DNA of 49,892 nucleotides from a virus. Position 1 is the stretch's first letter. Each line of letters opens with the position of its first letter. The notes under the pieces were generated by a model. The model did no database searches. It saw only the letters and a list, made by a program, of their open reading frames with translations, and had not been told where the DNA came from. The stretch is from the IMG/VR virus record IMGVR_UViG_3300017783_000038, positions 1-49,892 of that record; one strand, 5' to 3'. Both the position numbers and the translations under genes were made by a program. Shown here piece by piece: positions 3,617-48,149 of this stretch.

Positions 3617-4243
3617 TTATTTAGTTGGTGAAATTGATATAGTATTTGTGGCGTTTTCCAAAGGCGATGTAATAATATAATCAAACGCCATCGACCATCT
3701 ATCTTTATCTGTCATGTTTGCTCCAACAGAATGTTTTAATTTTGATGGAAACAAGTACAGATCACCTTTACTTGCTAAATATGAAATTTTTTTGCTGTTA
3801 AAAGAATTGTACTGAGTAAAATCTAAATTGAAAAACTCAGTAAAAGGATAGAAATTATGATCTACAAATGATAACTCACCTGATTCCCTTGCTGGTTCTG
3901 GAATATCAATATAAAATATTCCACTTACGATAGCATGACAGTGTGCATGTTCTTGTGTGAAGTCTCCAGGATCATGTTTATTGACCCATGCTCCATTACA
4001 AACATACTTGTAATGATTACCAGCATTAAACAGATTATCCATGTAATTTTTTACATGCTTTCCAATTTCTTGGAGTAGTCTGTTGTATTTTTCTTTATGC
4101 TCTATTCTAATAAACCATCCATTATTTGCAGGACTTCTTACCACAGGTTCTGATTTTAGATCTGAGTATAGAGATTCTGGGAGGTTTAAATTTGACTTGT
4201 AAATTGGTGTAGCAAAACAGGAATCAATATTATAATTTACCAT
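3617..4243 (-). CDS. 2OG-Fe(II) oxygenase superfamily protein
   Basis: A 208-aa protein of the iron- and 2-oxoglutarate-dependent oxygenase type often carried by cyanophages. The double-stranded beta-helix core is recognisable. The stretch NKHDPGDFTQEHAHCHAIVSG (about residues 88-108) holds the first iron-ligand histidine cluster, ELSFVDH is a following strand, and GDLYLFPSKLKHSV (about residues 160-173) holds the distal histidine. An arginine in RWSMAFDY is the likely 2-oxoglutarate anchor. The N-terminus (CFATPIYKSNL) is typical of this phage subgroup. The substrate cannot be read from the sequence. Its place between the adhesin and the neck genes suggests late expression. The start overlaps the end of the 54-aa gene by seven bases. 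Confidence 0.85.
   Translation of the reverse strand: MVNYNIDSCFATPIYKSNLNLPESLYSDLKSEPVVRSPANNGWFIRIEHKEKYNRLLQEIGKHVKNYMDNLFNAGNHYKYVCNGAWVNKHDPGDFTQEHAHCHAIVSGIFYIDIPEPARESGELSFVDHNFYPFTEFFNLDFTQYNSFNSKKISYLASKGDLYLFPSKLKHSVGANMTDKDRWSMAFDYIITSPLENATNTISISPTK
3618..3624 (-). promoter_or_regulatory. Late promoter motif CTAAATA
   Basis: CTAAATA on the minus strand runs into the TAA stop of the oxygenase gene, about 29 bases upstream of the ATG of the 62-aa coiled-coil gene. Confidence 0.5.
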
Positions 4244-18735: not shown

Positions 18736-21700
18736 TTATTTCTTAGTGGTGTGGGCAATAATAGTAACTCTTACAACATGCGTCTCAGCAATATTGCTGT
18801 CCATATCAATATTTAGTCTCACCTCATTATTTTCAGTTAAGACAAATGCGGGGACTAGTAACTTATTACCAGTAAGGATGTTTCCGTATTCTGCAAAGTA
18901 CACATCGGTGCCATCATCAATTACAGTAAACTCTACAAATTCCTTGTCTCCTGTTGTAATATTTTCTGCACTTGCAGTAACCTTTGCTGATCTTTCAGTT
19001 GCGGTTTCATAAACATTATATCCATTAGTTTCAATACCACCCTTAACCAGAGAGAAATCTACCGAGTGAATTCGTAGATCATTAATTTCTAAGTTCTTAA
19101 GATCCTTATCGAAGATTTTAATTCCATCAAAGGTTCCTGTTCCAAATCCAGTATTATAAAACAAGTCTCCTTGATCATCCATTCTCAGAACAGGATCGAT
19201 TGTTAGACCAGCAGAAATACCAATATCAAAATATTGTTTTGTGGAATGCAGGAATGTATTGGTAGCAGAAGTATTATCTAAAGTAGTTGCTCCTGCATCA
19301 ATACTCAAGAGAGATGCTGTTAATTCAAATTCATCTGAAGTAACTGACCTTACAGTATCAATTGCATAGAAATCTAATGAAGTGGCAGATAATTGTAAAG
19401 TATTGTTGTTGTCATTATAGAAGAAGAGAATATTCTCATTAGCGCCAGGTGAAGTCTCGGGAATAATATAAGTGTTCTGGTCAACATCCTTGACGCCACC
19501 AAGCGAACCCCAGTTATTGCCGTCATAACCTTCATACTGTAAAGAAGTTGTATTGAAACGAATAGAACCTTGTACAGAAACACCTCTATCGTTATCTCCA
19601 CCAACAGGAATTACTATACTTGTTCCAGCATCAATAACTACTTTCTTGCCAGAATTTGGACGCAATATAATGTCGCTAACATCTGTAGAAATAGTATTTT
19701 CAGTTAATCTAAGGTCGCCATTAATTGATAGTGGTAGACTATTTGCAGGACCAATTCTGATCTCTTCACATTCATTAAAAACAATAGGACCAACTGCAAG
19801 GTGAGTCCACTTCAACTCCATAGTACCATTCTGGAAAGTATTTCCAGATGTATCTGTTGGAGCATTACCTGTGGTTGCACTAGTACCAATAGTAACAATC
19901 TCAAAAATATTGATACCGTACTTTAAGTATAAACCTACAGTTGAATACTCGAAGTTTGCAACCCAGTTAATATATGATGGTGCTGTCGTATTGGTAGAAT
20001 TGATTTCCTTAGCAGCTTCAAAGATCAATTCATCTTTCTTCACTTTCATCGAGTTGATGTCATCATTAATGAACCACAAAGTGTTATCATTAACGCCAAT
20101 ACTTTCTTCTGCTAAAATGGTAGTATTGCCATCTAAATCTCTTACACCACCAAGAGAAGACCAAGAACTAGTATCTTCACTATAACCTTCATACTGTTGT
20201 GTTGTTGTGTTGAATCTAATAGCACCATTTGCTGCAAGACTGGTAGGTCTTTGTGCATTAGAACCAGAAGGAATAACTAGCGCAGTAGTATTACCAACCT
20301 TAACAACTCTTCCAGTAAATGCAGATAACTCCAAGTCATCTGTGGAGATAGTAGAAACTACATTATTTTGAATTCTAATCTTATCGTTAACATTCAGTTG
20401 ATTTGTAGTTTTTAGAACACCTGATGTTGTTAAATTAGCAGAAGCACCAGATACGACAAAACCAGTAGATCCAACAGTTAAATTCCCTGAGAAAGTTGTA
20501 TTGATACTAGTAACAGAAAGACCATCACCAGCATCTTGAATTTCTGGTGATTTAAGGAAAGTAGTTGCTTCGTAAATAGGTGATGTTCCTTTGGTATTAA
20601 CTGTAGATTCGTCAATACTAGAAGTTACTGCAGTAAGAGAATCTACAGTCATTAGACCTGTTTCTACATCTCCCGTAATAGAATCAATAGTCTCAATTTC
20701 TGCAACAATAAATTCTGCACCAGAACCAAATACTCTTGGGTTATTTGAATCGATTGTGATGGCAACTTCATCGTAATCAAATCCACCTTCATTTGCGTGG
20801 GCCGATCCAAGTCCTCCACAATAATAGTACAGAGTTGCGGGTGTATTTGTTGTTGGTCTGAATACTACCTGACCCTCTAGTCTCTCTACTCCATCTGTAT
20901 ATTCTACACCTCTAAAATCTGCAGTAAGAGTTCCTGTAGCAAGAGCTGGTTTTGTTAGAGTGATAGTAGTGGCATTATCAACTGACCCAACAAAAGTATT
21001 AGAAACAATACCTTGTCCATCTGTAACTGTTACTGCCATTCCAGCAAGAATACCTGTAGTACTAGCAACAGTTATTTGTGCAGAAGAAATTGTAGTAGTT
21101 ACAGAAACATCCTTAATCCAGGATGGTGCCCAAATACCATCTCTGAATTCAGAGAAAGAGAATACGTGTGAATTATTACTATCGTTTGAAACATCAAAGA
21201 TATATGAATCACCAGCATACATGGTGATGGATGGTTCTAACTGATTGTTAATAAGATAACGATATCCATCAGTTGCAGTATTAACATCAAAGTCTACAGA
21301 AGATCTTACATTTGTTATTGTATCGCCATCTTCAAATTCACTTTCTTGAATAATAATGTAATCAATATTACCACCAGTTTCTTTGATGTAAATTACATTA
21401 TAAGGATCTCCACCAGCAGCAAATTGATCACTTCCAAGAATAGCAGATGATGCTATTGTTCCATTAAAAGTAACAATCTGTACATCAATATTAGTAACAT
21501 TATAAGTTACTGGCGCAACTAGAGATGTTGCATTAACTGCTAGTAGATCTTGGAAAACATAACCATTACCAGGATTATTAACACTAATACCATCAACAAC
21601 ACCTAGAGTTCCTACAGTTAAATTTAAATCTGATGTTGGATTTGGTCCATATGTAGGAGTAACTGTGAAAACACCATCACCAGGAAGTACGGTATCATCT

Positions 21701-23547
21701 GATAGGATTAGTGTATTACCATCAATACTTGAGATCGATGTTCCTTCAAAAAGTTCTGCATCACCAGATGTAACTTTAATTTCCATTCCAGGAAAAATGC
21801 CTGTTACATCAGTAACAGTCATGGTATCACCAGGATCACTTGACGCGAAGGTTAATACAGCAGTACCATCCCCCAACGCAGCAGAACTTAAAGTAACTGA
21901 AGTTGCGCTATTAACACTAACAACTGTTTCCGTACCTTCAAAATCTGTAGATCCACTTACAACCATTCCTGCTTTAACATTAGCAGTAGTTTCTCCTTGA
22001 CCCGTAATCGAAACTGTGGAACTTCCTTCTGTATAGTCACATTCCAACTCAACTTCACCATTAGCATAACCACTAATTCCTGTGGTCTCATCTGGTAACT
22101 GAAGTGTGTCATTTGTTTGATAGTTTTCGCCTTTGGCTACAAAGAAGAAACTATCTACAGCACCAGGTTGTGATGTTACTTCAAATTCAAATCCACTACC
22201 GCCTTTACTGCCAACATCAGAATCATTAATAGTTAATGTATCTCCTTGTACATAATCAACTCCATCATCGTTAAATGAAATGGCAGTAACGATACCTGCA
22301 TAAACAGGACTTCCTAAAGTGTATTCAAATCCAGATCCACCAGGAAGATCAGATGTTACTACATCATTTTGATTGTAATCGAAACCAGGAGATGTAATAG
22401 TAAACTCGACTACTTCACCTAAAGTATCCACACGGATATCTGCAATCATTCCATGACCGTAGATTCCAGTTGTTCCAGATTGTACAGTAATAGCTGCACC
22501 CATTCCATCATGGATACCACAGTTATACTTAATATCACCTACTGGTGCGCCTGGTTTGATAATAAAATCAATAAAATTATTATCTGTTGACTCTAATACT
22601 TGGAAATAATCACTATCTAATTCTGAACCAGAAGTAGTTTGAAATACTAGAGGGTGACCACTAACAGACGAATCTGACATGTCAAATCTGTAAGTGTTGC
22701 CAATGTCTAGTGTTAATGCTTGCTGTGTATTACCATCAATTTGAAAAACATTATTTGGTGGTGGGGATCCAGGATTAGAAACTACAGTTACTGAGTAAGT
22801 TGCAGCAGGGTTTGCTGCGAAAATAGTCTTGCTAGTATAATCTTGATTAGTATAACTAGCACCAACGTTAGTGATACTTCCTTGGTAATTAATAGTACCA
22901 GCAATAGTAACAGTTGCTGTTTCTCCCGATCCAGAACTAGAGATGTTAACTATTGGAACATTTGTAAATGTTCCTGGTAAGTATGCAGAACCACCACTAG
23001 TGATACTTCCTTTTACACCGACAACTTCAAAGTCGATGATTGCACCTGAACCACTTCCTCCTTCTAAGTATTGGTCGCTATATTCTCCATATTCGTAACC
23101 ACTACCAAGACTATTTGTTGAAAATGTATATTCTGTTACAGTAATATTTGAGGTTAAGTTCTCACCAGTTCCTCCTGTCATAGGAACATTAAGGAATGTT
23201 CCTGCATCATATCCAGATCCAGGATTAGTGATTACAATATCACTAACTGTATTTTTCTGAATAATGATATCCCTGAAACTAATAAAAGCAGGGTTTGAAA
23301 AATTTGCTAGTTTTTTGCTACTAGAAGCAATACCTAGAGTTTGATTATCTGGTCTATAGAAACCTAAGGTATCTTCATTAGTGAATGATAGAGATGGAGC
23401 TACCAGCGAACCATCACCAATTTTCAAGATACCTGTTGATAGGTCAGAACCACCTGCAGAAATACTGAAAAGATTTTCTGCAATCGAATTAATTTTGATT
23501 CTTTGCTGTTCAAAGGTATCAGTTCTTGCTACATTAATTGCTGGCAT
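18736..23547 (-). CDS. gp9-like baseplate/fibre-connector protein with cupredoxin-like domains (1603 aa)
   Basis: The N-terminus (FEQQRIKINSIAENLFSIS) is typical of cyanophage structural proteins. Residues about 100-240 carry GxGY beta modules. Residues 250-352 form a cupredoxin-like domain with H298, C343, H346 and M349 in the amicyanin pattern (GHPLVF, then CGIHDGM). Later come tandem beta modules of the type GMxVxG...TVTLS. A second, degenerate cupredoxin-like domain lies at about 760-925 (SHVFSFSE, YYYCGGLGSAH). Residues about 1100-1500 hold repeated fibre motifs (RPTSLAANGAIRFNTTTQQYEGY, RGVSVQGSIRFNTTSLQYEGY). The last 100 residues resemble the C-domain of T4 gp9, the wedge-fibre connector. 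T4 gp9 has 288 aa, so this is a greatly expanded relative at best. The start overlaps the 68-aa gene by 14 bases. Confidence 0.75.
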   Translation of the reverse strand: MPAINVARTDTFEQQRIKINSIAENLFSISAGGSDLSTGILKIGDGSLVAPSLSFTNEDTLGFYRPDNQTLGIASSSKKLANFSNPAFISFRDIIIQKNTVSDIVITNPGSGYDAGTFLNVPMTGGTGENLTSNITVTEYTFSTNSLGSGYEYGEYSDQYLEGGSGSGAIIDFEVVGVKGSITSGGSAYLPGTFTNVPIVNISSSGSGETATVTIAGTINYQGSITNVGASYTNQDYTSKTIFAANPAATYSVTVVSNPGSPPPNNVFQIDGNTQQALTLDIGNTYRFDMSDSSVSGHPLVFQTTSGSELDSDYFQVLESTDNNFIDFIIKPGAPVGDIKYNCGIHDGMGAAITVQSGTTGIYGHGMIADIRVDTLGEVVEFTITSPGFDYNQNDVVTSDLPGGSGFEYTLGSPVYAGIVTAISFNDDGVDYVQGDTLTINDSDVGSKGGSGFEFEVTSQPGAVDSFFFVAKGENYQTNDTLQLPDETTGISGYANGEVELECDYTEGSSTVSITGQGETTANVKAGMVVSGSTDFEGTETVVSVNSATSVTLSSAALGDGTAVLTFASSDPGDTMTVTDVTGIFPGMEIKVTSGDAELFEGTSISSIDGNTLILSDDTVLPGDGVFTVTPTYGPNPTSDLNLTVGTLGVVDGISVNNPGNGYVFQDLLAVNATSLVAPVTYNVTNIDVQIVTFNGTIASSAILGSDQFAAGGDPYNVIYIKETGGNIDYIIIQESEFEDGDTITNVRSSVDFDVNTATDGYRYLINNQLEPSITMYAGDSYIFDVSNDSNNSHVFSFSEFRDGIWAPSWIKDVSVTTTISSAQITVASTTGILAGMAVTVTDGQGIVSNTFVGSVDNATTITLTKPALATGTLTADFRGVEYTDGVERLEGQVVFRPTTNTPATLYYYCGGLGSAHANEGGFDYDEVAITIDSNNPRVFGSGAEFIVAEIETIDSITGDVETGLMTVDSLTAVTSSIDESTVNTKGTSPIYEATTFLKSPEIQDAGDGLSVTSINTTFSGNLTVGSTGFVVSGASANLTTSGVLKTTNQLNVNDKIRIQNNVVSTISTDDLELSAFTGRVVKVGNTTALVIPSGSNAQRPTSLAANGAIRFNTTTQQYEGYSEDTSSWSSLGGVRDLDGNTTILAEESIGVNDNTLWFINDDINSMKVKKDELIFEAAKEINSTNTTAPSYINWVANFEYSTVGLYLKYGINIFEIVTIGTSATTGNAPTDTSGNTFQNGTMELKWTHLAVGPIVFNECEEIRIGPANSLPLSINGDLRLTENTISTDVSDIILRPNSGKKVVIDAGTSIVIPVGGDNDRGVSVQGSIRFNTTSLQYEGYDGNNWGSLGGVKDVDQNTYIIPETSPGANENILFFYNDNNNTLQLSATSLDFYAIDTVRSVTSDEFELTASLLSIDAGATTLDNTSATNTFLHSTKQYFDIGISAGLTIDPVLRMDDQGDLFYNTGFGTGTFDGIKIFDKDLKNLEINDLRIHSVDFSLVKGGIETNGYNVYETATERSAKVTASAENITTGDKEFVEFTVIDDGTDVYFAEYGNILTGNKLLVPAFVLTENNEVRLNIDMDSNIAETHVVRVTIIAHTTKK

Positions 23548-33867: not shown

Positions 33868-36800
33868 TTAGGAGATAGAATACGGGATAATTTCATCGCC
33901 AGTAGATAGAGAAACCGTTCCTCTAATAATAATGCAACCAGTAAATGAAGTTGCAGTTATTCCAGAATATTGAATGATAGCAAGAGTTCCTGCAGAAGAG
34001 CCAATATTTGACTTAATTGCAAGATAACCTTCAGACTCAAAATATGCGGTAGAATTAACATCTATCACTCCGTTAATGAGATCTGATGTTGTGAATGTGA
34101 CACCATTTTGTATTGATGGTGGTGCAAGATTAAATTTCTCACCAGAGATTGTGAAACTAGAATTACCTCTAGAAGAGAAATCTTTGATTGAAAGTGATGA
34201 GAAGTAAAGCGTGACTTCTTCAATAGTCATACCCGAAACATTAGCGGATCCATCATCGAAGAATCCGTCAAAGTGACTAATAGTATGTCCCGCATTTGTC
34301 TTGGCATAATCGCCAATATAACCAGATGATGCACCAGAAAGCAAGTTTGTTATAAAGACCACGTTACTATTTCTCTGAACAACACCGTAGTCATCTGTGA
34401 GATCTACGAATCCATTCAGTCTAGTCGGTACTGGGTCTGTTATAAAGATACTCTCTTCATAACCATCAACAGCACCAGATCCAGGTGGAATAAGAAGCAA
34501 TTCTAAAGAATTCTTTCTAATGAATAGTTCAGTTCTAATAGATTGAACTGTACTGGAAACAGTAGTTTCATTATATGTGATAGAATCAATAGTGGTAACT
34601 GTTTCAGAAGGTCTTACCGAAACGCTATCAGTAACAAATGTAATGTATGATGTACTTTCTACGATTGGATCAACAGAAACAGAAATTACTGTCTGTGTTA
34701 CATTAAATGTGTAGAACTCATCAATCTGTTTCTGTAATTCATTTCTTACATTCGTTTCATTATGAGCAGTTTCAAACGATTGTACATTCTGTAAAGCAGT
34801 TTCTAGTCTGTAAACAACCTGCGATTGTACATTAGAGATAGACTCTACTACAATTTGTGGTTGGAGTTCTAATTCAATTACTCTTGTAGTTTGTACAGGT
34901 GCAACATCAGGAGTTACAATTTGACGATTGGTATTTCTCTCGGTAACTGCTTGTTCTGTAGGTACAAGTTGAATAGTAACAACTTGAGAATCAGACTCAA
35001 CAAGAGTAACACCTGCATATGTAGAAGCAACGAGATCAGGAATCTGTCTCAGATATGTTCCTGCAGCCCAGAATTGTGCAGTTGTATTATCTTCTCCTCT
35101 ACTTACAGTTAAGAAACGATCATTAATCTTACGGAAGTATCTTACAACTTCGTTACCAATCATTAAGTAACCATTATTCTTGAACTTGCTAGTATCTGGA
35201 ATATAAACAACAGTATCTGTTAGATCCAGATCTACGTTCAAGAATGCTGCAACTTCATAGTAATTGATATTACTTAGAACATCATTTGTTATGACCTTCT
35301 GAATATTCTGAGTAATTTGTCTCTCAGCACCAAGACGTAGAGATCTAGACTCAGAGTAGATATTAAGAACTTCCGCTGGAGTCTCAATATATGCATTAAT
35401 TTCAGTTCCAGCATGTACCGTTTCAATAGGAAGAGTTTGTCTATTAAACTGATCATCAATCTTAAGAATAGGTGCTACAACACCAGCAGCTAAGTCTCCA
35501 CCACAGTCTTCTACAAGTTGAATCTGTGCTGTAATTACTCTATCAGTATCAACAGGACTATTGAATTGAATAGAACTAAAGGTATCAATACCAGAGACTT
35601 GATTACCAAAGACATTAACTATAGACGAACTTGCAAGTGTAAACGTAATAGGATTCGGTCTGAAACCAACGAATATCTCATCAACACCAATATCATTATC
35701 TTTGATAACATCATACTTTCTAGAAACAATTACACTAGGTTCTTCTGTATACCCAGAACCAGGATCAGTAAGATCTACACTAATAACTTGACCTTTGCTC
35801 ACAAGAACATTTGCTCTTGCACCGCCACCATCTCCATTTTGAGAGACGAAAACAATTACTGGTGGTGTATAATATTGATATGCAGTTGGTTGAGTAATAG
35901 GATCATAACTTCTCTGGTTCCAATCAAGTCTTTCAATCTTTCCAGTTAACTTACCGCTTCCATCTTTCTCCATGATGGGAACAATACTGAGACCTTCGCC
36001 TCTGGTAGTACCGTTATATGACTGGACTTCTACAGATGCAAAGTATGAATTAGAAACTTGTTCCTGAGGTCTTTGCTCTCTACTAGTTAGAATAGAAGGC
36101 AGTTGTTTAATTTTTCTAAATGCATCCTCACCTTCTACTCTAATAGTACTATTATTAGAAAGACTTACAAATGGGTCTCTATATGATTTTCTAATAATAG
36201 TTCCACGCCAGATCTGATCATTACCAGAAAGAAGCATTCTTCCCGATTCATCTGTATCATAAGTAATTGAAGAACTACTTAAGTCAATAGAACAATTTAA
36301 GGATATGCTATAATTCTGTTTGATTAATAGTGTAAGATTACGATCAAGTAACTTAGATTTATAACCAAAAATATTTGCTTTTAAATAACCAGACTCTACC
36401 GTATAGTCTAATACTTCGCCAATAACATTATATGTTCCGTCAGATCTTTCTTGGACTAGTTGAATAGGTAAACCTTTGTAATATCCCATCCATGATCTAT
36501 CTTCAACGATGTTAGCATTTGAAGTAAGTTTTATTGATAAACTACCTTTAGCATAATAGATGTCTTTGTTGTAATCATACAGATTCAAGATCTGACCAAT
36601 ATCTCTTCCATAGAGATATCTCATGTCAATCTTCATTTGAGTAGTGATTGGAACTGTAAATCTGATGTTTGGACCAGATACAGTATACGATACATCCTTT
36701 TGTTGCAGAACTCCGTCAATAAAGACTAAAAGGTAATCAGGTTCTTCGATATTAGCAACTGTAAGGTCTTCTAGATCAAGAATTAAGAAAGGACCCGTTT

Positions 36801-39800
36801 TCACATTATTGATTAGATTACGATCAATTGTGAGTCTCTTGTAATTACCAATACCAATAGCAGAAACTTTTTCTACTGCTGTTGGTTCGCCAAGAGTTTT
36901 CGCTCCTTCATACTGATCCCAGATAGGAGCAACATCAAATACTAATTTATTAGGAACAACAGTTCTATCAATATAATAGGAGTCATCTCCAGGATAAGAA
37001 GCATTAAATTTAGTTTCTTGTAAAACTGCATTAATGGTAATTAAGAAGTTTTCATAATTTTCTGAAATAACTTCTGTACCGTCTTCCCAGTAGAGATCGA
37101 ACTCTTTTGTCTCTCCGTCAATATAATCTGGTAATTGTTGTAAAATAGTTACATTATAAAGGATGTCTCTTAGGTCAGAATATAATGAATCAACTGCAGA
37201 CATGACATCTGCACACTCACTATCTGGAATAAGAGGATCTGGAAGTATGTTATAATTGGAATACGTTGTGCGAGTAGTCCAATATCCAGGTTTGTTCTGG
37301 TTAATTTTTACAATTTCTACAATACCAGTTCCCTTGTCTAAAATTTCCTTAACAATATCGACATATGTGTTAATAGAAGATTCTACTTCGATACATGTAG
37401 GTAATTGACTATCTGCAGTAACAGTAGAATCGATAAATGGTTCGATAGTAGTATGTGATCCTGCGCCGAGAGTATTTCTCATAGCAAGAACCATTAATTC
37501 TGCTAACTTATCCCATGCAGCAATAGATGCGGCAGTTTCTTCTGGAGATCTATTAATAGTGTTTAATTCCTCTCCATAAGGATATCCTTTATTACTATAA
37601 TAAAGTTGTGCAAAATTAACAACTCTTTCGTTTCCACCAAATCTTAGGTGGTATACAATATTGTCAATTAAAAAACCTAAGTCTCTGTAGCACTTTGCTC
37701 TACCACCAGCAGTAAGTGTGTAATTTGAATAAACAAATCCACTAACTTCTTCTTGTAAAAATTCTTTATTAGATGCAATTAGATTAGAAGCATCATAGAA
37801 TGTACCATTATTGATACCACTCATAAAGAATGTTGCTTCATCAGTTCCTGAGAATGATAGAGGAACGATAAGTTCATCTCCTGGTTGAACACTAAATTCA
37901 TTTCCAGGTTGTACTACACCTGTATTAGTTGATATAATAGTGCTTCCACTAGTAGTACCAGACAGATTAGTTTGACCAAATGCAGCACCACCAGGACCAA
38001 CACCAGAGTTAATAAGTGCAGGTTTTGATACTGTAATATGATTTACATCTTCAATAGAAACAATTTTAGTTCCTGGTGAGAATGCTCTTCCAGAACTGAT
38101 GAACATACCAACTGCAAGTCTATTTGAATTACTTACAGTAACAGTAAATGATCCTTGAATATATGTGACATCTTTATCGGTAGTATCCCAGTTCAATACA
38201 GCAAGTTTTGCTAACCTTGTGGCATAGTTAAAAATGTCTAGAGACTGAACTTTATTTTTTGTAATATAATCAGAAGAAGTCTCAAAGATATCTGCATAAT
38301 CAGTTGTCTTGGCATTACCACCAAATCTAAGGTCATGACTATAAGCGTCTAGAATATGTCCAATATCTAAACTATAGTCATCTAGTTTTGTACTCCAATC
38401 TAGGGAATTATGGGTTTGTTTACCATATCCAACAGTTTCTTCAATAATAAACTGTCTGTTCTTCTCAATTTGATTTGCTGAGTCTATCCATGTACCACTT
38501 CTTTGGAAGATATTTCTAATCTTCTTAAGATATCTTGTGTTGTATTCACTTCTCTTAAAGAAGAATGCTTTACCTAAAAATGTAACTCCATTATAAGGTG
38601 TAGATGCTCCTTTATTTTGACCAGTCAATTTTACATTATCACCTAAAGGTGGTTGTGCAAAAATAATTCTGTCTCTATTAACAGTATACGCAACTTTAGG
38701 TTCTTGGAGAATACCATCTAAAGTAACAATTAAAGATTCTGCATTAATTGGGAAGAATGCGTTTCCGAATTCATCTAATACTTGGAATGAAGTTGTTCCT
38801 TTTAATTTTCCATCCTCATTAAAGTAACCATCAAATGGTGCAGCAAGTACGAAATTGAAAGCACGAGTTTCGTTGAAATTAAACTCTGAAGTTGCTGCAG
38901 ATCCCGAACCTTTTCTAATTCTGGTATTTTCAACCTTCTGTACAGTTTGTGTTACTACTCTACGAGTATTTTCTACTGTAATTTTATTCTTCTCTGGATC
39001 CCAGAGTTGAAGGATAGTAAACGAACTAGCACCAGCACCAGTAGATGAAGGCATTTCTGACTTAGCAGAAGTTTCTACATCAACCTGTCCAAACAGTTTA
39101 AATCCAGCAGGGTGTGTGGTAGACTTGATAAGGTCTCTCCACTGTTCAATAGATGTCTTGGATTTGACAACATATGAATAGTCTTGGTAGAAGAAACTAT
39201 CAGTTAGTTTCTGGTTTGCTACACCAAGTCTTCCTTTGTCTGATGTATAGTATCCTAAGTTGTCAAAGAAACTACTAATTTGATTCTCAAATGTAGAAAC
39301 AAATACATTAGTAACAACACCAGTCGCTTTAGAAATATATCCTTTCAGAACAACATTCTCTCTAATGATACCTTCAATATTCTCAAGTTTTACTAAATTA
39401 GAACCCTCTCTGTATTCAGAGACTCTTGCACGAAGTACTTCAGAATTATTAATAGACTGAGTGATCAGTTCTCCTTTCTTAAATTTACCACTAAAGTTCT
39501 TTAATGATACTGTATACTTAGAAGTTACCTTAGATGCAATAGTTTTGTCAAGATGGTATGCAGCACCGTTTTTAATAATATTAACGGTTCTTGGTAAACC
39601 AATTTGCTCACCTTTTGCATACATCTCAACATCACTTTCGATGATCTCGATAGTTGGTGCATAGGTATACCCTTGTCCCTGTTTATCTACAGTAACAGAG
39701 AATAGTTTTCCTTCTCTTTGAACAACTCTGAATGATGCCCCATTACCATCTCCGTCAGTAATGATTGCAATAGGATTGACATATCCTGATCCTAAGCTAT

Positions 39801-42800
39801 CAATATCGACACCACTAATCGTATTAGTTACAGTATCAAATAATACAGTAGCAGTTCCTATGTTATTTTCAGTTGGTCTTACACCTAGAATCAAAGGAAC
39901 TTTTTTATAATTTTCACCAGTATTAATAATTTTAACAGTATTAATTTCTCCAACAGCAAACTGACCTGTTGTGGTGTACGTGATATTTCCCGAACCGTCC
40001 CATAAAGGTTCTGCTGGTAGATCATAAACAAATCGATTTGATGTCACATAATTAATCGTCTTTTCTCCTTGCAGAGGATCGTTGATAATTTTTAAGTATG
40101 CATCATCAGATTCAACAACATCGTTATTGTCGAAGTAATAAAAATTGAGGTAATTCGTTCCTAGTTTGTCTTCACTCGCTACAGCGTTTGCTGATCTCCA
40201 ACCAAAACCAAATTTAACATCAGTAAATGCTCCAGAACTACCAGGGAGTGGAGATGTTGCAAATTTTTCTAATGTTAATAGATTGTAACTCTTACTTGGA
40301 CTTAGATCGAAATAAGTTTGTAATAGAGACGAGTGTGAGGTATCAAAAATATAACGATAATATTCTTGAACTGAAATAGTAGGATTGGGAGTAAATGTTA
40401 AGTTATCTTCGGAGAATTCAAACCTATACTTAAGATTTTCTACAGAAGATACCGTAACTAATCTTTCAGGACTACCAGAATCAAAGAATGTTGTACTAAT
40501 AGTTACATTTGCTGCTGTTTCTTTCTCAACAGAATAGTTGTATACAATAGTTGCTTTCTGAGTTGTAAAATCATATTTTCTAATAAACCCAGTACCTAGT
40601 TCATTTGAGATTGCATAATCTGGAGTGAAGTGATATCTTGGTTTGTATAGAGAAACCTTTGCTCCGTTGTAATGATCTACTGCCTTACTATCTTCCTGTG
40701 CTCTTTCAACCGTAAGACGATTATCAGTAATTGCAACAATTTTAGCAATTTCAGATCCAATTGAAATAATATCATCTACAGCAAAACCATTTGAAGACTT
40801 TAAAGTAATTGTATTTGAATCAAAACTGATACCAGCATGATCAACATAAACTGCAAGTCTAGCAGAACTTAGTGATGCTCCTGATCTTTGTAGTTGATCA
40901 TCATCGACACCTAGATAATCTCCTCTTTTATATCCAGTTCCACCATTCTGAATTATAATACTAAAAGCTTGACCAGCTGAAGATACAAGAATAGTAGCAG
41001 TAGCACCAGTACCACTTCCACCAGTTATTGGAACATTTGTATAAAATCCTTCTGTATAGTCAGCGCCACCGTTTAGAGTGGTAATTCTACCGATACCATC
41101 AAACTCAACAACAGAAGAATTTTTAGGTGTATTAAAGATTACTTCTTGATATAGTCTCTTTCTTATATACCAAGTTTCTGTTTTTGTATTATCCTCTGGA
41201 ATAATATCAACAGTAATTTTATCGTTAATACCTAAACCATGTGGAGTTGTTGTTTCGATTAGAGCAACTTTTTGGTTTACATCAAATGGTTCTAAGTTAT
41301 CACTAAGTGATACAATAGTAACTATTCTAGAACCAGAAGTATTGAATAGGTTATCGGATTGTAAGAAGTAATCGTCATCAACAACCCAAGTACCAGAAAG
41401 AACTTTAATTTTAACTACATTTTGTCTGCTAGTTCCTTCTAGAATTTCACCTGTTGCGATTGGTGGGTTGATACCATCAGTCAAACTAAGAATAGCACCT
41501 TTAGTGTAATTACTATCCTGATCTATAGTAATAGTGAAAGTTTTGATGTCAGCAGAAAATGTTCCTGTGTTATTGAAAGTTCCGATTACATTCTTCAGAA
41601 CAATAACATTATCATCAGTAACAGTACCAACAATTTGACCTGATGCACCAGATGCTGGTTGTCTTAAGAAATCATCTTCAAACAAGTATGCATTCTGGAT
41701 AGTTGTTAATTTTACAACTTTATCTTCCTTACTCTGTAAGTATTGTACTTCTTTACCTTTTACTGATTCTACTAAGACTTCACAGTCTCTTCCATCTGTA
41801 CCAAGATTGTTCAGGAAGACTTTGGAGTTAACAGAGAAATTCGTTGTAGATCTCTGAATGTCTAGTCCTGTTACAGAACCAGCAGAAACTTCTCCAATAT
41901 TAGCAACCAAACCTTCGCCATTTCTTGGCATTCCAGCAGTAAAGAATCTCTTTGCTTTTTTGGGGATATCTTTTTGATTAATTAAAGAATTGTAATTACT
42001 ATCTACAGGAAGTGAATAATAGTTCTCTCCTAAAATATAGGGGAATTGTGGTACTTGATTGCTATCAACAGTAATGAAATACGCATAAGTTCCTAGTGGG
42101 AAATCTGGCGTGATGCAGTATCTTCCATTATTTCTATCTAGAGATCCAGATTTATGGGAATACTGATAATCATCAATAAACGTTCCCAGGGGGTATTTCT
42201 TGATAGCAGGCCCTTCTCTTCTGTTTCCTCTTAATGAAAAACTAGAAGTCATTCTAGAAATACCACTATCTCCATTTAAAGGATCGGTGTATCCGAAAGG
42301 TCCATAAATTGGGTTGCCATCATAAGCAAATCCAAGAATAGGCGAGTGGGTCTTGACAGATGGTTCTGAATCAGCACTATCTAAGTTATCAGATAACTGT
42401 ACTCTAATTGCTTTAGGATTGGCAAGTTGACCATATCCGTACTCTAAAACATTATAACGATTTGCAAAAACATATCCATACTGAGAATCTAATTTAGTTT
42501 TATTAATTTCAAATCTATTTTTGTTCCACTCTTTTAGATAAGGAACTGCTGTAGCACCTTCTCCAACTGGTAAAATATCAACTACAACATTCTTTTGTGT
42601 GTATAGATTACCACCAGAAACCTTGTCTATACTAATGATAGAACCGTCATTATCAACAACACTAATATATTCGGCAAATTTACCTCTGCCTGCTTTATCT
42701 CTAATTCTAATTAAAGGAGGTGAAGAATAGAACTCACCTGCGTTCTCAACAACAATACTTGTTACTTCACCACGAGTTACAACTGCTCTAGCAATAGCAC

Positions 42801-44610
42801 CACGTCCTGATGTAATTTCTACAGTTGGAGTTTTAACAAAAATGTCTTTTGTATCTACTTCAATACTATCAACAACCTGTCCAACCATTACTGCCGTAGC
42901 TTTAAATGGAAGACCATCAACAAGAACATAAGGTGGAGTGTTATATCCTCTTCCTCTAATGCTAACATCAATTAATTTTAGTTTACCATATCTGATGCTT
43001 TCTTCATCTCTGAAACCAAACAGTCTTACCCCATTTACTAATACACCAATATCACTCTTTGGTGTACTATATGTCTCAGTTGTAGTAATTGCTTCTTTTC
43101 TGATAATTCTAAGCAACTGCTGATCTTGAACGGGAACATCAACAGGATATCTGTCAAGGATGTTGTATGTTGGCCAACCAGAAGTTGTGATGTAGTAATT
43201 CTGCTCATCTTCAAAGATAGCAGATACATTTGTCGAAATATCAGATAAAGATGCAGAAACATCTAAATTAGTTGGAGATGATACTGGATTCCACTGATTC
43301 AGCATCCATCTGGTGTTATTAGATCCAGGTGCTAGAATTTTAGCATCATTTGCTCTAAATCCTGGTTCCGATACTTGAATTTTATCATCAGTAAAAGAAT
43401 ATGGTTGTGCATCTTTAACAGATAGATTGTAAGTAACACCAAGAGTTAATAGTTCTACTCCATTACCAGCAATAACTACTGGTTTGTAAACAGATGTTCC
43501 TTGAGGGTGAGAGATAGGATTATCTCTTTTACTAATATTAAATTGATTTACTACTTTTCTATCAAATTTAATAAATTCAGATCCTACTAGAACTTCACCA
43601 TAACTATCCCAATATACAGTAGAGTGTACATCAATCTTTTTACCTACACCATATGAGTCTGGTAGAGGTCTTTCTAATCTAGTTTTAGTAGATACTGCAA
43701 ATTCACCATTAACAGTCTCTGGTGCTAATACAATATTCCAAATTACTTCACCATCAGAAGTTCCATCTTCATAAACGGTGTCAACAGTAGAAGACGAGTA
43801 TGCATACTCATCTGTTGGTTGCTGAATAATCTTTTGTCCAATGAGAGATTTTGGATCTCCAGAAATAACTTTGCACTTTAGGGCATATACATTAACCCAG
43901 TCAGACTCTGAAGTCTTGTATGTAAAATCTCTTGGATTGTAAACTTCTGGTTTGTTGTCTACATCCTTAGCAACAATAGAATTAAAGATAAATTTGATAG
44001 AGCTAGTAGTTCCCTTTGCTCTATAAAACTTTTGAATATTCTTGATAAGGGTTCTTTTGTCTACCTCACCCCTTAGATACTTTTCGGGGAATCCACCTAG
44101 GTACTGATTCTCAAAGTTCTTAACAAATGCATATAAGAAAAGATTACTGACATTATGTACTTCTTTCCCTGAAACATGAGAAGCAGCAGTTGTGCTTTCA
44201 AAGTTAGAGGAATCGTATAGATCTCCTAGAGTTGTATTACCACTGACACCTCTGGCACACTTCTGCAGTTCTGTGTCTGTTCTAGTCTCATAGAAGATAA
44301 TTTCATCTTCAATTCTTACATAACCATTTTTTTCTGGAAATGAACTAGCATCTACTATAGTAATAGTAGTATCTGTATCATTAATAGAAACAGCAAGAGT
44401 ATCTTTCTGTTTTAATAAATTTTGTTCGTAAAAATTGATATCTGCATATTTCTGGAGGTTATTAATAACATCCAGAGTTCCACCTTGAACTTCCTGTGCT
44501 TCATAGTACTTCTGAACAAACTTTCCAAAAAGTTCATACTCAGTAGAAATGAATTCAGGAAGCTGTGACTCGATCAGAGTAGAAATTCTTTTGGTCTTAA
44601 CAGCAGCCAT
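33868..44610 (-). CDS. Giant gp7-like baseplate wedge protein with nested insertions (3580 aa)
   Basis: I assign this to gp7 from two separated blocks that match the T4 gp7 C-terminal domain. Residues about 10-245 include FVQKYYEAQ, NIQKFYRAKGTTSSIKFIFNS (near 200) and SLIGQKII. Residues about 1815-1840 include YSYVVKSKTSIEQWRDLI and THPAGF. In T4 these blocks are only about 90 residues apart. The insertion holds a YHYH domain at 753-867 (AYDGNPIYGPFGY), many GxGY beta modules and FPxxGYxxIxxEI modules. The second half holds DGxLQ modules near 1970, 2525 and 2630 and two helical modules with DLRFGGN or HLRFGGN near 2095 and 2323. Position between gp6 and gp8 supports gp7, which starts wedge assembly in T4. 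The T4 protein has 1032 aa and its N-terminal part is not recognisable here. Confidence 0.8.
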   Translation of the reverse strand: MAAVKTKRISTLIESQLPEFISTEYELFGKFVQKYYEAQEVQGGTLDVINNLQKYADINFYEQNLLKQKDTLAVSINDTDTTITIVDASSFPEKNGYVRIEDEIIFYETRTDTELQKCARGVSGNTTLGDLYDSSNFESTTAASHVSGKEVHNVSNLFLYAFVKNFENQYLGGFPEKYLRGEVDKRTLIKNIQKFYRAKGTTSSIKFIFNSIVAKDVDNKPEVYNPRDFTYKTSESDWVNVYALKCKVISGDPKSLIGQKIIQQPTDEYAYSSSTVDTVYEDGTSDGEVIWNIVLAPETVNGEFAVSTKTRLERPLPDSYGVGKKIDVHSTVYWDSYGEVLVGSEFIKFDRKVVNQFNISKRDNPISHPQGTSVYKPVVIAGNGVELLTLGVTYNLSVKDAQPYSFTDDKIQVSEPGFRANDAKILAPGSNNTRWMLNQWNPVSSPTNLDVSASLSDISTNVSAIFEDEQNYYITTSGWPTYNILDRYPVDVPVQDQQLLRIIRKEAITTTETYSTPKSDIGVLVNGVRLFGFRDEESIRYGKLKLIDVSIRGRGYNTPPYVLVDGLPFKATAVMVGQVVDSIEVDTKDIFVKTPTVEITSGRGAIARAVVTRGEVTSIVVENAGEFYSSPPLIRIRDKAGRGKFAEYISVVDNDGSIISIDKVSGGNLYTQKNVVVDILPVGEGATAVPYLKEWNKNRFEINKTKLDSQYGYVFANRYNVLEYGYGQLANPKAIRVQLSDNLDSADSEPSVKTHSPILGFAYDGNPIYGPFGYTDPLNGDSGISRMTSSFSLRGNRREGPAIKKYPLGTFIDDYQYSHKSGSLDRNNGRYCITPDFPLGTYAYFITVDSNQVPQFPYILGENYYSLPVDSNYNSLINQKDIPKKAKRFFTAGMPRNGEGLVANIGEVSAGSVTGLDIQRSTTNFSVNSKVFLNNLGTDGRDCEVLVESVKGKEVQYLQSKEDKVVKLTTIQNAYLFEDDFLRQPASGASGQIVGTVTDDNVIVLKNVIGTFNNTGTFSADIKTFTITIDQDSNYTKGAILSLTDGINPPIATGEILEGTSRQNVVKIKVLSGTWVVDDDYFLQSDNLFNTSGSRIVTIVSLSDNLEPFDVNQKVALIETTTPHGLGINDKITVDIIPEDNTKTETWYIRKRLYQEVIFNTPKNSSVVEFDGIGRITTLNGGADYTEGFYTNVPITGGSGTGATATILVSSAGQAFSIIIQNGGTGYKRGDYLGVDDDQLQRSGASLSSARLAVYVDHAGISFDSNTITLKSSNGFAVDDIISIGSEIAKIVAITDNRLTVERAQEDSKAVDHYNGAKVSLYKPRYHFTPDYAISNELGTGFIRKYDFTTQKATIVYNYSVEKETAANVTISTTFFDSGSPERLVTVSSVENLKYRFEFSEDNLTFTPNPTISVQEYYRYIFDTSHSSLLQTYFDLSPSKSYNLLTLEKFATSPLPGSSGAFTDVKFGFGWRSANAVASEDKLGTNYLNFYYFDNNDVVESDDAYLKIINDPLQGEKTINYVTSNRFVYDLPAEPLWDGSGNITYTTTGQFAVGEINTVKIINTGENYKKVPLILGVRPTENNIGTATVLFDTVTNTISGVDIDSLGSGYVNPIAIITDGDGNGASFRVVQREGKLFSVTVDKQGQGYTYAPTIEIIESDVEMYAKGEQIGLPRTVNIIKNGAAYHLDKTIASKVTSKYTVSLKNFSGKFKKGELITQSINNSEVLRARVSEYREGSNLVKLENIEGIIRENVVLKGYISKATGVVTNVFVSTFENQISSFFDNLGYYTSDKGRLGVANQKLTDSFFYQDYSYVVKSKTSIEQWRDLIKSTTHPAGFKLFGQVDVETSAKSEMPSSTGAGASSFTILQLWDPEKNKITVENTRRVVTQTVQKVENTRIRKGSGSAATSEFNFNETRAFNFVLAAPFDGYFNEDGKLKGTTSFQVLDEFGNAFFPINAESLIVTLDGILQEPKVAYTVNRDRIIFAQPPLGDNVKLTGQNKGASTPYNGVTFLGKAFFFKRSEYNTRYLKKIRNIFQRSGTWIDSANQIEKNRQFIIEETVGYGKQTHNSLDWSTKLDDYSLDIGHILDAYSHDLRFGGNAKTTDYADIFETSSDYITKNKVQSLDIFNYATRLAKLAVLNWDTTDKDVTYIQGSFTVTVSNSNRLAVGMFISSGRAFSPGTKIVSIEDVNHITVSKPALINSGVGPGGAAFGQTNLSGTTSGSTIISTNTGVVQPGNEFSVQPGDELIVPLSFSGTDEATFFMSGINNGTFYDASNLIASNKEFLQEEVSGFVYSNYTLTAGGRAKCYRDLGFLIDNIVYHLRFGGNERVVNFAQLYYSNKGYPYGEELNTINRSPEETAASIAAWDKLAELMVLAMRNTLGAGSHTTIEPFIDSTVTADSQLPTCIEVESSINTYVDIVKEILDKGTGIVEIVKINQNKPGYWTTRTTYSNYNILPDPLIPDSECADVMSAVDSLYSDLRDILYNVTILQQLPDYIDGETKEFDLYWEDGTEVISENYENFLITINAVLQETKFNASYPGDDSYYIDRTVVPNKLVFDVAPIWDQYEGAKTLGEPTAVEKVSAIGIGNYKRLTIDRNLINNVKTGPFLILDLEDLTVANIEEPDYLLVFIDGVLQQKDVSYTVSGPNIRFTVPITTQMKIDMRYLYGRDIGQILNLYDYNKDIYYAKGSLSIKLTSNANIVEDRSWMGYYKGLPIQLVQERSDGTYNVIGEVLDYTVESGYLKANIFGYKSKLLDRNLTLLIKQNYSISLNCSIDLSSSSITYDTDESGRMLLSGNDQIWRGTIIRKSYRDPFVSLSNNSTIRVEGEDAFRKIKQLPSILTSREQRPQEQVSNSYFASVEVQSYNGTTRGEGLSIVPIMEKDGSGKLTGKIERLDWNQRSYDPITQPTAYQYYTPPVIVFVSQNGDGGGARANVLVSKGQVISVDLTDPGSGYTEEPSVIVSRKYDVIKDNDIGVDEIFVGFRPNPITFTLASSSIVNVFGNQVSGIDTFSSIQFNSPVDTDRVITAQIQLVEDCGGDLAAGVVAPILKIDDQFNRQTLPIETVHAGTEINAYIETPAEVLNIYSESRSLRLGAERQITQNIQKVITNDVLSNINYYEVAAFLNVDLDLTDTVVYIPDTSKFKNNGYLMIGNEVVRYFRKINDRFLTVSRGEDNTTAQFWAAGTYLRQIPDLVASTYAGVTLVESDSQVVTIQLVPTEQAVTERNTNRQIVTPDVAPVQTTRVIELELQPQIVVESISNVQSQVVYRLETALQNVQSFETAHNETNVRNELQKQIDEFYTFNVTQTVISVSVDPIVESTSYITFVTDSVSVRPSETVTTIDSITYNETTVSSTVQSIRTELFIRKNSLELLLIPPGSGAVDGYEESIFITDPVPTRLNGFVDLTDDYGVVQRNSNVVFITNLLSGASSGYIGDYAKTNAGHTISHFDGFFDDGSANVSGMTIEEVTLYFSSLSIKDFSSRGNSSFTISGEKFNLAPPSIQNGVTFTTSDLINGVIDVNSTAYFESEGYLAIKSNIGSSAGTLAIIQYSGITATSFTGCIIIRGTVSLSTGDEIIPYSIS

Positions 44611-46835: not shown

Positions 46836-47038
46836 CACTTACCGCAGAATCCGTCCGCCCATTCCTGTTTGTTGTCAAAGAATTCTCCTTCTTTAACATC
46901 TTTCATCTTTCGTGCTCTTTTAAGATGCACTTCACTATCAGTTTCTGTGATGAGTGTCATCCCAGATTGCCTAAAGTCTTCACTCTTGTCCACTCGTTTG
47001 TCCATGGATGGTTTCCTGCTGTTGTTTTCGTTCGTCAT
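46835..47038 (-). CDS. Hypothetical protein (67 aa)
   Basis: A small charged protein ending in EFFDNKQEWADGFCGK, a C-terminus I have seen in small cyanophage proteins. The ATG at 47038 is the first plausible start; another at 47005 (MDKRVDKSEDF) would shorten it by 11 residues. It overlaps the end of the 229-aa gene by 59 bases (or 26) in another frame. It has no visible domain and no known function. It sits directly before the gp25 promoter. Confidence 0.62.
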   Translation of the reverse strand: MTNENNSRKPSMDKRVDKSEDFRQSGMTLITETDSEVHLKRARKMKDVKEGEFFDNKQEWADGFCGK

Positions 47039-47669
47039 TAGTTTGCCAAAAATAATCATCGGTGTCTCCAAGGCGTCCCCAGTCCGTTCCTCCTTCAACT
47101 TCATACTCTATGGTAGATACTTTAAAGTCGGGGAACAAAGGTGCCTCAGGGGTCAGAGAGAGGTCATACAGACGCATCCTGTTATTGGGATACAAAGCAT
47201 ACTGACCATTCTCTAATGCAATACAATTGTGCGATTTGTGCTCATTAGGAGTTTCGCTCACATTATTATCTATCACATCAGGATTTGCATGATAGTTATC
47301 TAATGTAAACAAATATTTACCCTTCTGTAATCCATGATTACGAGTAAAGATCTCCACTTCCATTTGTGCAACAAAACCTTTGTTGATTGCCATTACTCCA
47401 TAGTCCATGCAATTCCAAAATTGTAAATTGCTGAGATCCATGTCTATGACTGGGGTTTGGGGAGATCGTACAAATGCACTTATGGGTAATTTATCATACA
47501 TCGCACCATATTCTGGTAAGTATGTTTCAAAATAAAAAGCACGCCCAGGTATACTTTTAGCAGCAACCCAGACGCCCTCAACAAACTCCCCATGTCCATC
47601 TTGATGATCGCGTAAGTATTCTCTACGAACCCAAACTTTTTCTGCAGGGAGATTGCAGATTAAATTCAT
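46980..47669 (-). CDS. Conserved cyanophage hypothetical protein (229 aa)
   Basis: No named family is recognised. The protein is rich in aromatic residues, with VWVRREYLRDHQDGHGEFVEGVWVAAK-type sequence at the N-terminus, GRAFYFETYLPEYGAMYDKLPISAFV (about residues 42-67), LQFWNCMDYGVMAI, and a late segment KVSTIEYEVEGGTDWGRLGD. I believe proteins with this combination recur near the baseplate genes of cyanomyoviruses, with no assigned function. There is no signal peptide or membrane segment. The start overlaps the stop of the 48-aa basic gene (ATGA), so the two are coupled. Confidence 0.82.
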   Translation of the reverse strand: MNLICNLPAEKVWVRREYLRDHQDGHGEFVEGVWVAAKSIPGRAFYFETYLPEYGAMYDKLPISAFVRSPQTPVIDMDLSNLQFWNCMDYGVMAINKGFVAQMEVEIFTRNHGLQKGKYLFTLDNYHANPDVIDNNVSETPNEHKSHNCIALENGQYALYPNNRMRLYDLSLTPEAPLFPDFKVSTIEYEVEGGTDWGRLGDTDDYFWQTNDERKQQQETIHGQTSGQE

Positions 47670-47849: not shown

Positions 47850-48149
47850 TCATCCTGCTGCAAATACCGTCCAACATGCTGCTGCCATTAATGCCCCTCC
47901 AGGCGCTAATGCATCACCTAAACGTGAAACAGGTTGTCCCTCTACTATAACCTTCGCAGAACCGCCTACAAGCACGTCTGGGTGGACATCCTGACCACAG
48001 GTGTGTGGGGTAAAGGTATTACCAACTTGATGTACAGGTAATCCATTAGCAAATACAGTCTTTGCACTAGTAACACCTGTTGATGGTGAATAACAACCAT
48101 GTCCAGTTGTAATGTCACCAAGTCTACTTACGGGTCTTAATGTTGCCAT
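47850..48149 (-). CDS. PAAR-domain spike-tip protein (gp5.4-like)
   Basis: A 99-aa protein filling a single PAAR domain. It has RPVSRLGD at the N-terminus, GHGCYSP (His17), NGLPVHQVG, a His/Cys cluster in TPHTCGQDVHPDVLVGG, and a second VSRLGD near residue 75. PAAR proteins form a sharp cone, often zinc-bound, at the tip of the T4 gp5 spike; T4 gp5.4 has 97 aa. The gene therefore supplies the membrane-piercing point of the tail. It follows the 317-aa gene with a one-base TAATG overlap. gp5 itself is not in this window. Confidence 0.92.
   Translation of the reverse strand: MATLRPVSRLGDITTGHGCYSPSTGVTSAKTVFANGLPVHQVGNTFTPHTCGQDVHPDVLVGGSAKVIVEGQPVSRLGDALAPGGALMAAACWTVFAAG

Follow-up and report, generated by a model that had tools for sequence, protein, structure and literature searches.

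Can a phage tail protein carry a copper site of the blue-copper type? The question is raised by a virus record of 49,892 bases (the window, meaning the whole stretch of DNA analysed), which holds T4-like cyanophage tail and baseplate genes and whose DNA relatives among isolates are Synechococcus and Prochlorococcus phages. A first-pass annotation, made from sequence alone, had proposed that residues 250–352 of a 1603-aa protein (22492–22800) form a small blue-copper fold with an amicyanin-type ligand set. The four residues that it named in this protein, H298, C343, H346 and M349, are each found in their place. The features of the protein and of its first cupredoxin-like domain (copy 1) are listed below; the ligand assignments are predictions.

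18736..23547, minus strand: 1603-aa virion structural or baseplate-region protein, containing both cupredoxin-like domains (open reading frame and PHROG matches)
22453..22809, minus strand: cupredoxin-like domain copy 1, residues 247–365 (profile match, AlphaFold2, structural matches)
22654..22656, minus strand: H298, predicted first His ligand, in HPLVF (position and conservation)
22519..22521, minus strand: C343, predicted Cys ligand, end of strand 7 (position, model, conservation)
22510..22512, minus strand: H346, predicted second His ligand, strand 7–8 loop (position, model, conservation)
22501..22503, minus strand: M349, predicted axial Met ligand (position; Met conserved 3 or 4 residues beyond the second His)

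The host protein and its setting

The 1603-aa protein matches phrog_6005 (virion structural protein, E=0) and phrog_32294 (baseplate wedge, E=9.5e-55) and is adjoined by baseplate genes in the window, so its initial designation as a baseplate or fibre protein is reasonable. The isolates Syn1, S-MbCM7, S-H9-1, S-RIM32 and S-CAM4 each encode a related protein that has the domain in the corresponding position and is annotated as a virion structural protein. A very large protein, which the records label variously as gp7, virulence-associated or structural, adjoins these isolate proteins. Mass spectrometry of S-SM1 virions identified 41 proteins (Sullivan et al. 2010, PMC3037559), and the same study marks orthologues in other cyanophages, with S-PM2 and Syn9 proteome data; the presence of the 1603-aa protein there is not established.

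Elsewhere on the minus strand of the window, 47850–48149 encodes a protein with a PAAR motif that probably forms the metal-bound tail-spike tip, and 3617–4243 encodes a 2OG-Fe(II) oxygenase among the tail genes (PF13759, E 1e-20). A 229-aa protein (46980–47669, minus strand) carries the PHROG label 'ferredoxin' (E 1e-115), which looks doubtful because the protein has just three Cys and no Pfam match.

Sequence pattern of copy 1

The spacing C-x2-H-x2-M had been described as that of amicyanin, and this holds: the Paracoccus-type reference, the P. denitrificans amicyanin gene, was fetched and aligned, and its spacing equals that of copy 1. The amicyanin query is a 100% match to P. denitrificans. 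Among the 18 main window proteins checked, C-x2-H occurs a single time, in copy 1, and the full four-ligand pattern was met in 0 of 5000 shuffles of the 1603-aa protein. The protein contains 4 Cys and 10 His in total; 2 Cys and 4 His fall on the two predicted sites. There is one Cys per domain in 108 of 118 and in 72/72 copies, and therefore no conserved intradomain disulphide.

Predicted fold

The AlphaFold2 model of copy 1 (28-sequence alignment; pLDDT 87.1, pTM 0.81) supports a cupredoxin-like fold, the type defined by a Greek-key beta sandwich of about eight strands. Foldseek matched the model to rusticyanin and plastocyanin at E about 1e-3, alongside other beta sandwiches. In the VIA comparison, 50/50 listed rows are cupredoxin-fold proteins (Z 7.3–8.1 over 97–108 residues), including nitrite reductase, laccases, CotA and CueO. 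VIA cautions that a Z below 8 may reflect a common arrangement. As the best Z of 8.1 is modest, the fold assignment rests on the uniform match list and the ligand layout. The first His (H63 in the model) is located just before the strand at 65–69, which is strand 4, as in type 1 copper proteins. The Cys (C108) closes strand 7 (102–108), and H111 and M114 are within the strand 7–8 loop, ahead of the strand at 116–121. The four ligands are thereby predicted to occupy the strand positions of a type 1 copper site; their clustering in space is inferred, without distances. The small blue-copper fold that had been proposed is thus supported by AlphaFold2 and the structural matches, as a prediction only. 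The claim that all four type 1 ligands are present is supported by the strand layout and by conservation, including the coordinated loss in copy 2 described below.

An immunoglobulin-domain reading, suggested by the YYC motif, was rejected, since the Cys lacks a partner and VIA matches the model to copper proteins.

In BFVD, the copy 1 fold is matched by proteins from Pithovirus LCPAC and Marseillevirus LCMAC records that bear the name 'Beta-sandwich protein' (E 1e-6 to 3e-5), and the fold, irrespective of the ligands, may therefore also occur in giant viruses. Another BFVD match is a YHYH domain-containing phage protein. PF14240, the YHYH domain, is also matched strongly (E 1.2e-28) in the window itself, at 42049–42360, minus strand, residues 751–854 of a 3580-aa protein (33868–44610). 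At residues ~1407–1465 of the same protein (~40216–40392, minus strand) there is a weak, partial match to the module profile (E 0.014) without the ligands, conceivably a decayed copy of the module.

Sequence kinship to known cupredoxins

Profile comparison with eight cupredoxins (hhalign) was weak, at 48% (A2), 29% (A1) and 56% (A4). C-x2-H-x2-M was in register in all three comparisons, and reversed and column-shuffled controls, made for A2 alone, reached at most 4%. Masking the ligand columns drops the signal to noise. Descent from cupredoxins is therefore plausible on fold and site, but unproven by sequence. No Pfam or NCBIfam family scored above its curated cut-off for the module; among 35 relatives, four had sub-threshold matches to PF00127 (best E 0.04), and the plastocyanin family TIGR02656 gave E 0.093. 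A search of the domain sequence against PDB chains returned no match, and a profile search against PDB chains returned only chance-level matches, with antibodies mixed with plastocyanins. The module family may lie outside the reach of curated cupredoxin profiles, although we put this forward only as a possibility.

Conservation and spread of the copy 1 site

A fold that is kept while the four residues vary freely would have refuted the proposal; this outcome was looked for and was not found in copy 1. To avoid bias, relatives were gathered by a viral scan seeded only with the peptide GNTYRFD, which is free of ligand residues. The 118 unique full copies were clustered at 60% identity to 38. In these non-redundant copies, the first His, the Cys and the second His are kept in 97, 95 and 95%, well above the column mean of 50%. 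Met occupies the axial column in 82%, and many of the remaining copies have Met one residue later; Met is kept in loops of two lengths. A scan in the opposite direction, with the C-terminal motif YYYC-x2-H-x2-MG alone, scored for an upstream His in an H-x-hydrophobic-x-hydrophobic context, found this His in 76 of the 77 copies with enough upstream sequence, compared with 11% in shuffles; the single exception seems to have a domain inserted.

All four ligands are kept in 14/14 isolate loci examined, which come from cyanophages, pelagiphages and Methylophilales phages and have 28–56% identity to the window. The module is carried by a gp7-type baseplate protein in P-HM1, by a structural protein in S-TIM5, and by tail fibres of P-SSM2, P-TIM68, Bellamy, Mosig, Melnitz-3 and Baldr. 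Because these carrier proteins are not all orthologous, the module is mobile, like the Ig-like domains of phages. This wide spread in marine phages had been overlooked in the first-pass annotation. The copy 1 site is under selection. With a Pelagibacter phage copy as the query, six loci titled as marine bacteria were found (five Pelagibacter-related and one Porticoccaceae), and these could be phage DNA. Two contigs (L187 and L190) each hold two YYYC-x2-H-x2-MG modules, in L187 both within one 445-aa open reading frame.

A second, modified copy

The same protein contains a second, modified copy that had also been missed. Its features are:

20746..21303, minus strand: cupredoxin-like domain copy 2, residues about 749–934, interrupted (profile, AlphaFold2, structural matches)
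20905..21120, minus strand: nested beta domain in copy 2, residues about 810–881 (VIA matches)
21166..21168, minus strand: H794, predicted first His ligand of copy 2 (immediately ahead of the strand formed by model residues 62–65)
20818..20820, minus strand: C910, predicted Cys ligand of copy 2 (alignment, model)
20797..20799, minus strand: H917, predicted second His ligand of copy 2, C-x6-H (alignment)
20788..20790, minus strand: E920, axial-ligand position of copy 2, replaced by Met in some relatives (alignment)

The AlphaFold2 model of copy 2 has a pLDDT of 82.5, and its structural matches are rusticyanin and small laccases (Z about 7–7.5). The nested domain matches, in VIA, a structure from Arthrobacter phage Bridgette (Z 9.2) and a phage tail tube (Z 7.5). 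In relatives the axial residue of copy 2 is Glu or Met, and the gap between Cys and His is 2, 5 or 6 residues. The choice between Met and Glu at the axial place separates even two close relatives, L114 and L115.

In 53 relatives, the Cys and second His of copy 2 are both present in 29 and both absent in 24, and neither residue ever occurs without the other. The first His accompanies the pair in 29/29 proteins and is absent in 16 of the 24 that lack it. As the rows are related, a Fisher value for this co-occurrence is not an independence probability. On the tree, the full-site state of copy 2 changed at least 3 to 4 separate times, and the site was lost several times independently.

In the 24 proteins without site 2, site 1 is intact in all (22 by the automatic test; L010 and L129 were judged intact by reading their sequences). 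Site 1 is lost in L083 and L120 alone, which are sister rows, and their site 2 keeps His, Cys and His. The loss of site 1 is confined to proteins with site 2, and therefore 54/54 proteins, including that of the window, keep at least one site. We regard this as the best evidence that the site itself, and not merely the fold, is used.

Comparison with known systems

The module resembles amicyanin and plastocyanin (PF00127) in its predicted fold, the His before strand 4 and the Tyr-x-Cys that ends strand 7, and amicyanin in its C-x2-H-x2-M spacing. It differs from both in its location within a 1603-aa virion protein, in having no curated profile match and no known redox partner, and in the Pro after the first His and the longer stretch from the first His to Cys. 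Amicyanin is a stand-alone periplasmic electron carrier encoded in the mau cluster (mauJ adjoins), whereas the module sits inside a virion protein encoded among tail genes and does not share this setting. The top structural matches are cupredoxin domains of two enzyme groups, nitrite reductase and the multicopper oxidases. In the latter, the type 1 His resembles the His-Pro found at the first ligand of the module; however, the His-x-His ligands of their trinuclear copper centre are not evident in the module, and there is no enzyme context.

Cyanophage plastocyanin (petE) is likewise a phage-encoded cupredoxin with type 1 ligands, but its product is made in the cell as a soluble protein of photosynthesis, whereas the module is part of the virion. 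No petE was found in the window, an absence of little weight given a partial record. For metal sites in phage tails, marine phages included, there is a precedent in the iron-binding HxH sites of T4 gp37 and marine phage tail fibres, for which a role in attachment has been proposed (PMC11705849). Those fibres are trimeric and bind iron through His pairs; the module is one beta sandwich with His-Cys-His-Met. Promiscuous Ig-like domains of phage tails are mobile beta-sandwich modules in non-orthologous virion proteins. They are not known to have a conserved metal ligand set, unlike the module, where such a set is predicted.

Proposed site and rival explanations

The explanation that we favour, and consider likely, is that residues 247–365 are a cupredoxin-like module of the tail or baseplate that keeps its type 1 ligands by binding a metal, most likely copper. 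Both metal binding and the identity of the metal are inferred. H298, C343, H346 and M349 would be conserved because the site binds metal, and copper would be favoured over other metals by the Met and the fold; zinc is not excluded. As the protein is made in the cytosol, copper loading would be expected to follow lysis, in sea water. By analogy with the iron in T4 fibre tips, the most likely role would be structural or adhesive, with the metal pinning the strand 7–8 loop of an exposed tail module. As a role, electron transfer is less probable, given that no redox partner is evident. That the site stabilises the fold, or senses or carries copper, as first suggested, is still conjecture without binding or functional data; no metal has been measured, and its identity and the role of the site remain possibilities drawn by inference. 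The residue after the first His, Pro, is a point against the favoured explanation. Asn or Thr is common at this position in small cupredoxins.

Zinc, or another soft metal, at a purely structural site is the rival that survives best, although we consider it unlikely. Zinc is also bound by Cys/His sets and tolerated by type 1 sites. Virion assembly takes place in the cytosol, where free copper is very low, and the axial place of copy 2 is often Glu. Against this, the Met of copy 1, kept in two loop lengths, and the cupredoxin layout favour copper. A metal-free structural cluster, built on contacts between buried loops or on a disulphide from C343 to another molecule, also seems improbable. Packing alone could preserve a buried group of Cys and His, and disulphide networks are reported to occur in the tail of phage Milano (PMC10811340). 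However, four residues distant in sequence are kept together, the Cys and second His of copy 2 are lost together, and the domain nearly always has a single Cys. Least likely is that the domain descends from a plastocyanin captured from a host or phage, no longer binds copper and is kept only as an Ig-like spacer: plastocyanin genes are common in cyanophages (401 records), and the copy 2 site was lost in several lineages with the fold pattern retained, but the copy 1 site is kept in nearly all relatives and 0/54 proteins lost both sites.

Beyond the favoured explanation of a metal-binding tail module, a bolder reading is possible but less likely. Marine phage tails may carry widespread, selected type 1 copper centres that bind host surfaces or copper-uptake receptors, or that sense redox or copper on contact; copy 2, with its axial Glu, may be a second, differently tuned site.

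Significance

That no phage copper site of this kind had been described was part of the original claim, and we found no published description either. The literature searched, which left most subscription journals and bioRxiv outside its scope, contained no paper on a cupredoxin with a tail fiber, or with phage and baseplate. As many journals were outside the search, this is weak evidence of novelty. The module, at ~110 residues, offers a likely fold for stretches of many hypothetical and virion structural proteins. The known metal of virion tails is iron, which underlies the idea that phages attach via metal uptake systems. If the assignment is true, a copper-type site spread over the tails of phages that abound in the ocean would place a second metal beside iron, and would link these viruses to the copper chemistry of sea water.
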